From Chamaesiphon minutus PCC 6605 (GTDB lineage Bacteria; Cyanobacteriota; Cyanobacteriia; Cyanobacteriales; Chamaesiphonaceae): DNA of 64,000 nt. The DNA lies in NCBI RefSeq assembly GCF_000317145.1, contig NC_019697.1:5406886-5470885 (forward strand), read 5' to 3'. Position numbers and translations under genes: made by a program. Each line of letters opens with the position of its first letter. Within the stretch, counting starts at the first letter, position 1. Under the pieces are notes generated by a model, which worked only from the letters and a program-made list of their open reading frames with translations, searched no databases and was not told where the DNA came from. Positions 7,290 to 63,233 of this stretch are shown piece after piece.

Positions 7290-7344
7290 AATGGTGCTTA
7301 CCTCTTGGGCGATCGAGTTTTGGGCGCGAACGGTACAGCAGGCA

Positions 7345-7450
7345 TAAAACTAACCCCGACACTAAGTGCCGAGGTTTTCATTCAGTCGCTGACGAGCTGC
7401 CACTAATCTTTAGTAGCGATCGCTGCTGCTGTTTGCGTTAACCTCGGCAG
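7345..7450 (-). promoter_or_regulatory. L10 leader with terminator/antiterminator hairpins
   Basis: On the minus-strand RNA an 11-bp stem (7352-7362 with 7366-7376, AACCUCGGCAC/GUGUCGGGGUU, with wobble pairs) and a 3-nt loop is followed by UAGUUUUAU, like an attenuator. The upstream strand of that stem (7368-7376) can instead pair perfectly over 9 bp with 7440-7448 (GCCGAGGUU), which would prevent the terminator. This sits 60-160 nt before rplJ, as expected for the L10 leader family. The exact protein-binding kink-turn was not resolved. Confidence 0.65.
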
Positions 7451-7631
7451 GGAATTAAGCTATGCGCTCCTGCTGTCTGTGGTTGGCTATTGAATTTTGG
7501 TTAACGCAATTTTTTAGTCGCGACCGAACCTCAAATACTTAAATTAATATAGTGTTGCGGTCTAGCCGCAATTTAGCCTTAATTAACATAGCACGAGCGG
7601 TGTGCTCTCGGCAAGTTATTCCCGATCGTAA

Positions 7632-7794
7632 CAGTAATTCCAAATTCAAACCTATTCGTATATCTCGTAGGGGCGGGTTTATGCTAGCTAGTCCAGATTT
7701 GTACTAATCAATACCAAACAAACCCGCCCAACCCCACTAGCAAAGTGGATTATCGGTGAAAAATCGGTGAAATATTTTGAATTTGGAATTGCTG
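7632..7794. mobile_element. MITE sharing ends with the IS at 61,616-63,040
   Basis: A 163-bp element. The left end is CAGTAATTCCAAATTCA and the right end, read inward, is CAGCAATTCCAAATTCA. The 9-mer CGATCGTAA stands directly outside each end (7623-7631 and 7795-7803). The insertion sequence at 61616-63040 has the same 17-bp ends and also makes a 9-bp duplication, so it is the likely transposase source. The interior carries a GGGGCGGGTTTATGC...AAACAAACCCGCCC palindromic unit also seen at 30333-30400. Confidence 0.88.
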
Positions 7795-8038
7795 CGATCG
7801 TAACTAAATTATGAAAATCTAGACATGGGAGCGTGAATCGGGAATCGGTGGTGTGAAATATTACCCCCACTTCCACCACCTATTACTATGAGATGCTCTC
7901 CACGATTCACTATCCACTAGTAACGGCGTTGCGCTTCAAGCCCTCAGCCGAGTTGATTAAAATTAGTTGCACGCGGTTGACATTAACGCTCGATAATATC
8001 TAGATTCTATTGAGTATAGTCATAGTTGAGTAGATATT

Positions 8039-8245
8039 ATGGGCGATGCAAAACGGCGGAAAGAGCAAGGAAAACCCGATGCACAGCGAATTGTATCTTG
8101 GTTGCCGCTGACAACTGCTCAATCGTCAGCATTTGTGCGAGTGAGCACTCAGGGAGCTTGGATTGGGATCGGACTATTGGTTTTTGGCTGGTTGATGGTG
8201 CGCGCGATCGGGCCGAGTTTGGGGTGGTGGAAAATCGTCGGTTAA
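8039..8245 (+). CDS. DUF2839 small membrane protein
   Basis: 68 residues. The polar start MGDAKRRKEQGKPDAQ and the single C-terminal membrane helix (about 43-60, WIGIGLLVFGWLMVRAIG) match the DUF2839 family, found mainly in cyanobacteria and of unknown function. It starts at the ATG at 8039. A slightly longer frame overlapping it (8026-8250) is a shadow. It is monocistronic as far as can be seen. Confidence 0.8.
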   Translation: MGDAKRRKEQGKPDAQRIVSWLPLTTAQSSAFVRVSTQGAWIGIGLLVFGWLMVRAIGPSLGWWKIVG

Positions 8246-61396: not shown

Positions 61397-61615
61397 AAAA
61401 TGTACCTCGATGTCTAATGTAAATAATAAAAATGGTAAGTAAGCAGTTACAAATTAGCTGCATGGAAATTTAAACAATGATGTTGATACTACCGAGCTAG
61501 CCCGGTGAAGATCCGATTGAGATCCTCTGCTAGTAAGCATTATCGTCGATATCGATCGATTGACACTAAAGTTCTACACAGAGACGATCTCTGCTTAGCT
61601 GGGCTAAGTAGATAA

Positions 61616-63040
61616 CAGCAATTCCAAATTCAAAAATCTAGGAAGAGTTGGCGACCAGAGTGGAAGCCGAGCCGTAAAGCATGAAATCAATCAAAGAAGG
61701 CCAACTCTCAAAGAGTAAATATTTGGTAAGACTGAGGATATCTTGAAAAAAGCCTTTACGAGTAACACGCTTGAGACGAATCTGTCCATATGCAAGATCT
61801 GTTAAATGCAAAACAGTGTGAAAAAGGAATGCCAACAGGTTCAGCGTCAATAAACAAGCAGCTAAATGCTGCTGACCATGCCCAAAGTTATGCTCCAGAT
61901 GATATCCCTTTGTTTTGAGCACATTATGATTTTCATTTTCGGTCTTCCAACGACATCGACCAGCCGCAGCAACCAGAGGTACGCTCTGTTCGTTTAATTC
62001 ATGGCGGGTAATAAATGAATTTTCATATAATATTTCTCCATCTGATTGGCGGGTATGGATTAGTTTACACCAATTGACCTTCATTGCTGGCTGGGAGTCC
62101 CTTAGAGGAATTCCATTCACATATTGATAGCTATATAATTCGCTTGAATTGCTGTTCCACTGTTTCACTTCTAGCTTTTTCACCTCGCCAATACCATCCA
62201 AGTATTTCAACCAATCATAAACAGCAGTATGAGACGTTTCTAAACAGGTAAAGATAAAGTTCATTCCCGACGCTATCACCTGTTCACACATTGGTTGGTG
62301 ACTGTAGAGGTCATCTCCGAGTAGAGTGATTGCTTGTCCTTGGAATTCTGGGGCATGAGTTTTGAGCCATCGTTTAGCTGCTGCCACTTCGCAGTCCTGC
62401 TTCTGGTGACCATCTTGAGGTGTGATGAATTCCGGAGCTAAGGAAATTACTTGAGATTGCCCAGGCGCAACTATTACAGGCAAAATGGCACTGTGGAAGT
62501 AAGTTACTGTGCCATTTTTGTGGGTACGGCTCGAACAGCATTTACAGTTGAGTTTGTGCGAGTCAAAATACTGAGTTCCATCCAGCGCAACTAGTAATCC
62601 ACCGAGATATTCAAACGGTTTCAAGTGACCTTCTCGTCTTAAAGACTGATAGACGTGATTGAATACTCCAAATAGTGCTGTGGCTGAAATTTCATCCAGG
62701 ATATTCCGAATTTGCGGCACTGTTGGGATTTTAATCATGCCAAACAGTGTCTGAGCATTGCTTTTGCCCTGATTGCTATTCATGTGCCGCTGATGTTCTA
62801 AAAAGGATTCGCTTTGCATGAAAAACATCGAAAATGCTCCCAACACAGCATCTCTGATGGTGTATTTAGTGCCATTGCTGGCAAGGCGCGGATCTTTCAT
62901 CTGAAGAATTGCTCGGTTCAGATAGACTATCAATACCCCAAAACTCAGCTTCATTGGCTCCATTCTGCTTCTCTTTTTGAAGTCTCTCTATTCTCCTGCT
63001 CACCCTACCAAGTTGTCAAAATCTGAATTTGGAATTGCTG
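61616..63040 (-). mobile_element. Insertion sequence with 17-bp ends and 9-bp target duplication
   Basis: 1,425 bp. Both ends read inward CAGCAATTCCAAATTCA. The 9-mer AGTAGATAA stands at 61607-61615 and 63041-63049. It carries one intact transposase gene on the minus strand and is therefore autonomous. The MITE at 7632-7794 has the same ends and duplication length. Confidence 0.95.
61638..62963 (-). CDS. DDE transposase of the 61.6-63.0 kb insertion sequence
   Basis: 441 residues, apparently intact. DDE-type acidic residues are suggested by GGLLVALDGTQYFDSHKL (about 142-159; Asp), ITLLGDDLYSHQPMCEQV (about 215-232; Asp) and WKTENENHNVLKTKGYHLEH (about 350-369; Glu). A CKCCSSRTHKNG stretch with a possible zinc site lies near residue 163. 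The IS4-superfamily is likely; I cannot assign an ISfinder family without a search. Confidence 0.88.
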   Translation of the reverse strand: MEPMKLSFGVLIVYLNRAILQMKDPRLASNGTKYTIRDAVLGAFSMFFMQSESFLEHQRHMNSNQGKSNAQTLFGMIKIPTVPQIRNILDEISATALFGVFNHVYQSLRREGHLKPFEYLGGLLVALDGTQYFDSHKLNCKCCSSRTHKNGTVTYFHSAILPVIVAPGQSQVISLAPEFITPQDGHQKQDCEVAAAKRWLKTHAPEFQGQAITLLGDDLYSHQPMCEQVIASGMNFIFTCLETSHTAVYDWLKYLDGIGEVKKLEVKQWNSNSSELYSYQYVNGIPLRDSQPAMKVNWCKLIHTRQSDGEILYENSFITRHELNEQSVPLVAAAGRCRWKTENENHNVLKTKGYHLEHNFGHGQQHLAACLLTLNLLAFLFHTVLHLTDLAYGQIRLKRVTRKGFFQDILSLTKYLLFESWPSLIDFMLYGSASTLVANSS

Positions 63041-63233
63041 AGTAGATAAAGATCGCGCTTTAATTGTAGAAGTTTAGTACCAAGTATTAAGCGATGGCCG
63101 ACAACATTTAAGTCACAAATGATACAATGACTTCAGTGGATCTCAAATATGAAGAGTCCCGATCGTCATTGCTACATTAATAGTCGCAAGCTATTAATTC
63201 ATAGTTTATCATTCATTATTTTTGATTTTCCCT

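Follow-up and report, generated by a model that had tools for sequence, protein, structure and literature searches.

A 163-bp MITE upstream of the rplJ gene of Chamaesiphon minutus PCC 6605 has the same ends as an insertion sequence (IS) of 1425 bp located in the same window (the whole stretch of 64,000 nucleotides analysed here), and it encloses a REP-like hairpin. The explanation that we favour, with a probability of roughly 0.85, is that this MITE was moved by a transposase of this IS group, captured a GTAG-REP as its cargo, and left the core promoter of rplJ intact.

The MITE and a co-resident IS share their ends and the length of their target-site duplications

The MITE copy at rplJ lies at positions 7632-7794 (plus strand), flanked on one side by the divergently oriented rplJ leader and on the other by a small gene at 8039. 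Its terminal inverted repeats, CAGTAATTCCAAATTCAAA at 7632-7650 and CAGCAATTCCAAATTCAAA on the minus strand at 7776-7794, are 19 nt long and 95% complementary. A perfect 9-bp target-site duplication, CGATCGTAA, is present on both sides (7623-7631 and 7795-7803, plus strand), and the element and duplication described in the earlier note are therefore real. No relevant open reading frame and no transposase gene were found in the 163 bp, indicating that the element is non-coding. The candidate autonomous partner is the full-length IS of 1425 bp at 61616-63040 (minus strand), whose ends (61616-61632 and 63024-63040) are 17 nt long and 100% complementary, and which is flanked by the duplication AGTAGATAA at 61607-61615 and 63041-63049 (plus strand).

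Both elements were counted in the whole genome (6.76 Mb in three contigs, including the 6,284,095-bp chromosome). The exact 17-bp end, CAGYAATTCCAAATTCA, occurs 34 times, compared with about 0.002 matches expected by chance. Fourteen IS copies, which are about 100% identical, account for 28 of these occurrences and three MITE copies for the other six; none was found elsewhere. When up to three mismatches were allowed, the end pattern gave 138 real matches versus 28 in a control with the reversed pattern. Besides the three intact MITEs (L001-L003; 100, 99 and 96% identity), one degenerate relic was detected. No MITE was found in the plasmid records.

Each intact MITE is flanked by a perfect 9-bp duplication (CGATCGTAA, TCGGCAAAG and GCAATCTAG). 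Comparison of the flanks of the 14 IS copies revealed perfect duplications of 9 or 10 bp in 11 of them and a 9-bp duplication shifted by one base in another (L041). The remaining two, L038 and L039, showed no duplication in this comparison, probably as a result of rearrangement. The earlier note had proposed that the IS shares the ends of the MITE and its 9-bp duplication, and this holds genome-wide: every exact end lies on an IS or a MITE and not on unrelated elements, and a duplication accompanies all three intact MITEs and 12 of the 14 IS copies. Within the elements, similarity is confined to the terminal 17-19 bp, and divergence starts directly inside the ends. The element is thus short (MITEs are about 70-300 bp), has ends and a duplication length matching those of an IS, and is present in multiple dispersed copies, as expected of a MITE. 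Overall, the original observation is confirmed as correct. Since the MITE copies at different sites are 96-99% identical and the IS copies about 100% identical, both elements have moved recently.

At another locus (G000:C1:725982-727553; L004/L037), a full IS copy with its own 9-bp duplication, GGTTTAAAC, is inserted near the end of an old degenerate MITE relic. A 109-bp candidate MITE at C1:3918415-3918523 (L153) was set aside, as its ends are degenerate and it has no duplication.

The IS encodes a putative Tn5-like transposase

The IS contains an open reading frame of 441 amino acids at 61638-62963 (minus strand). Sequence searches of Pfam, NCBIfam and PDB with the encoded transposase gave no match. 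A structure model (pLDDT 83.7, built from a 9-sequence alignment) was then compared with known structures, and Tn5 transposase (1mm8) was matched with a Z-score of 22.6 and an rmsd of 4.4 over 367 aligned residues, which far exceeds the next structural groups. According to this model, the protein is predicted to have the Tn5/IS50 fold. Duplications of 9 bp are typical of IS50 and IS10. The predicted fold and the duplication length are in common with Tn5/IS50 (IS4 group), from which the transposase differs by its sequence (about 10% identity) and by an incomplete Y-(2)-R-(3)-E-(6)-K signature: in the alignment, R338 and E342 are present and correctly spaced, whereas another residue stands in place of Y and K is off by one position. 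Because of this incomplete signature, and because a 47%-identical relative carries an ISNCY annotation, we refer to the transposase as Tn5-like and not as a member of IS4.

Related ISs often keep CAGCAATTC at their ends. In exact or near-exact form, the 17-bp end is also present on related ISs of genome G009, an uncultured cyanobacterium (L125) and Pseudanabaena (L144), while the Calothrix/Nostoc/Microcystis branch has CAGCAATTCTCATTTT instead.

Judged from the sequences, there is good support for mobilisation of the MITE in trans by this IS group, and we infer that the transposase of the 1425-bp IS itself would act on the MITE. It is rather unlikely that another transposase with the same ends, for instance one of the relatives in congeners, has been the main agent in nature. 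The occurrence of identical or almost identical ends on the related ISs listed above would fit such a history; in this genome, however, the ends are carried by the 1425-bp IS alone, and the recent MITE copies are found alongside 14 near-identical copies of it.

The MITE is inserted close to the putative rplJ promoter, on its upstream side

The gene downstream of the MITE, rplJ (ribosomal protein L10; 6768-7289, minus strand), is preceded by the L10 leader (RF00557; 7338-7500, minus strand), and 342 bp separate its start from the MITE. The distance between MITE and leader, previously given as about 190 bp, is actually 131 bp when counted from the Rfam match at 7338-7500. An alignment with congeners, evaluated by eye, revealed a conserved TTGCNN-18-TATNNT arrangement on the minus strand upstream of rplJ. 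The corresponding putative core promoter at 7585-7614 consists of TTGCCG (7609-7614), an 18-bp spacer and TATGTT (7585-7590). A pattern scan for promoters did not pick up this site and found no promoter-like sites inside the MITE. The duplication lies 8 bp and the MITE 17 bp upstream of the putative -35 box.

The suggestion that the MITE may have altered the rplJ promoter region is hence right insofar as the insertion is located just upstream of it, but it has left both the core promoter and the L10 leader undamaged. We consider any influence on rplJ to be presumably small and exerted via the upstream DNA. A selected regulatory insertion that alters L10 expression would be in line with the short distance to the -35 box. 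This is nevertheless improbable given the intact promoter and leader, the lack of promoter-like sites inside the MITE in the pattern scan, congeners that do without the insertion, and the fact that this is the single known site of its kind.

Indeed, the rplJ site was found without the MITE in the closest congener, G003 (98% identical L10), and in five others. The site of L003 is likewise free of the MITE in G003. When the flanks of L002 were joined without the MITE and without one duplication, they aligned uninterrupted to a gene for a P-type ATPase in both G007 and G001. An insertion hence adds the MITE together with one 9-bp repeat. The sites compared revealed no excision scars. The P-type ATPase gene that houses L002 (around position 1500 of this locus) is decayed and shows other damage, too. 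The flank of L002 (about 1343-1388) also contains a separate dispersed repeat around TAGGGGTAATTCATGAA, which has many copies here and in G003.

The MITE encloses a REP-like hairpin

A genome search with the MITE yielded, in addition, about 46 matches of lower strength; the majority are confined to MITE positions of about 30-113, and several others are IS ends. The interior is non-coding and unrelated to the IS, as had been noted, but it is not without relatives, since it belongs to a dispersed REP-like family. The nested hairpin (7667-7744, plus strand; MITE positions 36-113) comprises a GTAG tag (7667-7670), a stem (7671-7680 and 7720-7729), a variable loop of about 39 nt and the tail AACCCCACTAGCAAA. 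Its dispersed relatives are 73-82% identical and share a consensus in which GTAG is followed by the stem halves GGGCGGGTTT and AAACCCGCCC, separated by a variable loop of 35-40 nt, and by a C-rich tail. Searched with up to two mismatches, the tag-and-stem pattern matched 82 times in the genome and never in the reversed control. Like REPs of the GTAG superfamily, these elements have a tag directly 5' of a palindromic stem and are present in many copies, many of which form closely spaced inverted pairs (e.g., L009/L010 and L016/L027). Classical REPs are 20-40 bp long with a short loop, however, whereas the elements described here extend over about 75-80 bp owing to their long, variable loop of 35-40 nt, and for this reason we call them REP-like.

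A Y1 HUH transposase gene at C1:2979031-2979396 scored above the Pfam cut-off for Y1_Tnp and reached 72.7 bits (cut-off 80; E 2.7e-20) against the NCBIfam model REP_Tyr_transpos. Four REP-like matches lie within 1 kb of this gene; the probability of such clustering by chance is about 2e-7 after correction for five Y1 genes. Hairpins and gene thus look like a REP-RAYT arrangement with the gene as candidate RAYT (REP-associated tyrosine transposase), and the MITE would accordingly carry REP-like cargo, which probably depends on an enzyme other than that of the MITE. The cyanobacterial locus L154 (1436-1960) has the layout of a REPtron, i.e., a RAYT-like gene with REP-like hairpins on both sides, and its REP loops vary and have, with 35-40 nt, an unusual length.

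Every intact copy of the rplJ-type MITE contains the REP core. A REP-free version of it was sought with the two MITE halves joined, and no match spanned the join. In a tree, the REPs borne by MITEs form clusters from which most solo REPs are separate (label changes: 7 versus 16.7 after shuffling). From the sequences, we infer a single capture of the REP; as the tree is based on 76 columns and poorly resolved, more than one capture may have occurred. Half-MITEs lacking either the left or the right half (L084 and L098; L082, L092 and L100) were also observed. In these, the break is at or near the REP boundary, which suggests recombination between REPs or REP-defined events.

The MITE family is spread over the genus Chamaesiphon

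Among 60 relatives, matches to the MITE (E 1e-12 or better) were confined to Chamaesiphon, where seven of the eight other genomes contain them. Full-length matches are 75-91% identical; in one of the seven, G001, the REP part alone matches. Five congener MITEs (L075, L076, L077, L078 and L088) have kept both ends, with 7-9 of the 9 duplication bases matching. A homologue of the IS transposase was detected by transposase search in one congener only. In G004 and G006, contigs break off within copies of an IS that is about 85-87% identical and has matching ends. We therefore rejected the idea that congeners are devoid of the IS and attribute its apparent absence to an assembly gap. In addition, G004 harbours a REP-free element of 131 bp (L186; contig C31, 633-763), whose ends are the same and which is flanked by the perfect 9-bp duplication ATCGATTAT. 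This is apparently a second type of MITE that uses the IS ends, indicating that ends of the IS type can move different cargoes.

These data also bear on the claim that IS and MITE form a direct pair. The pairing itself stands, as shown by the ends, the 9-bp duplications and their exclusivity; a direct ancestry does not, because only 17-19 bp are common to both elements and the MITE occurs throughout the genus in diverged copies (75-91% identity). Although identical ends and duplication length would be expected if the MITE were a recent internal-deletion derivative of the 1425-bp IS, this origin is very unlikely: IS sequence in the MITE is limited to these 17-19 bp, with no IS interior, the space between the ends is occupied by the REP hairpin, and diverged MITEs in most other Chamaesiphon genomes indicate that the family predates the IS copies, which are near-identical. 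We consequently rejected a recent deletion. Hardly credible at all is a long REP-type palindrome moved by a RAYT (an IS200/IS605-like enzyme) with merely incidental IS-like ends, despite the REP core in all intact MITEs of the rplJ type and the few relics (L084 and L098) that retain one MITE half beside the REP, since the perfect 9-bp duplications are found at the MITE ends and not at the REP, enzymes of the IS200/IS605 type are not known to make a target duplication, the MITE ends match the IS exactly, and the REP-free L186 has the same ends and a perfect duplication.

Discussion

Mobilisation by a transposase of the IS group could proceed as follows. The 19-bp ends of the MITE would be recognised by the transposase of the 1425-bp IS present in the genome, or by that of a close relative, which would excise the element and reinsert it, giving rise to the 9-bp target duplications. 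The cargo would be a captured GTAG-REP hairpin, which probably became fixed when the ancestral MITE of the Chamaesiphon family arose. Each jump of the MITE would thereby spread a copy of the REP as well, with no need for the RAYT on which REPs normally rely. In the rplJ region, the native upstream DNA would have been replaced by the MITE, while the promoter and the L10 leader were spared.

A more far-reaching idea, which we regard as speculative and rather unlikely, is that the MITE is a doubly dependent element, served by a Tn5-like IS and equipped with a permanently domesticated REP. REPs would then spread both by cut-and-paste and by the RAYT, and the hairpin would aid the fitness of the MITE, e.g., as a cruciform that joins the ends.

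The pairing of IS and MITE is solid, of a known kind and, by itself, ordinary. What is modestly new is that the larger palindrome around a REP can be assigned to the ends of an IS, complete with duplications, and that one genome contains both candidate enzymes. This provides a second route for the spread of REPs and a clean IS-MITE pair in a cyanobacterium that is open to testing.

Several known systems resemble the one described here. According to extracts of the report on Acinetobacter (PMC6382973), MITEAba12 is a non-autonomous element of 111-114 bp that is spread over a bacterial family, has only its ends in common with the co-resident ISAba12 and generates 9-bp duplications. The Chamaesiphon pair is alike in its 9-bp duplications and in the restriction of identity to the ends, but it belongs to another IS group, and a REP cargo is not described in these extracts. 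BrickBuilt, a MITE of Porphyromonas gingivalis, likewise contains a second type of repeat, a minisatellite in place of the REP hairpin (PMC4596501). Among cyanobacterial MITEs, Nezha and others named in PMC10969869 and PMC3733652 have the same general build, being short and non-coding with inverted ends. The closest parallel for the REP comes from Anabaena variabilis, where, according to a passage of PMC3733652, GTAG-15 REP dimers regularly lie within a larger repeated palindrome and REP-less palindromes were not seen. In that passage the outer palindrome is described only as a target sequence, whereas in Chamaesiphon it consists of IS ends with 9-bp duplications, and the REP is placed at the level of the GTAG superfamily. 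The Chamaesiphon MITE thus offers a concrete explanation for REPs within larger palindromes of the kind noticed in Anabaena.
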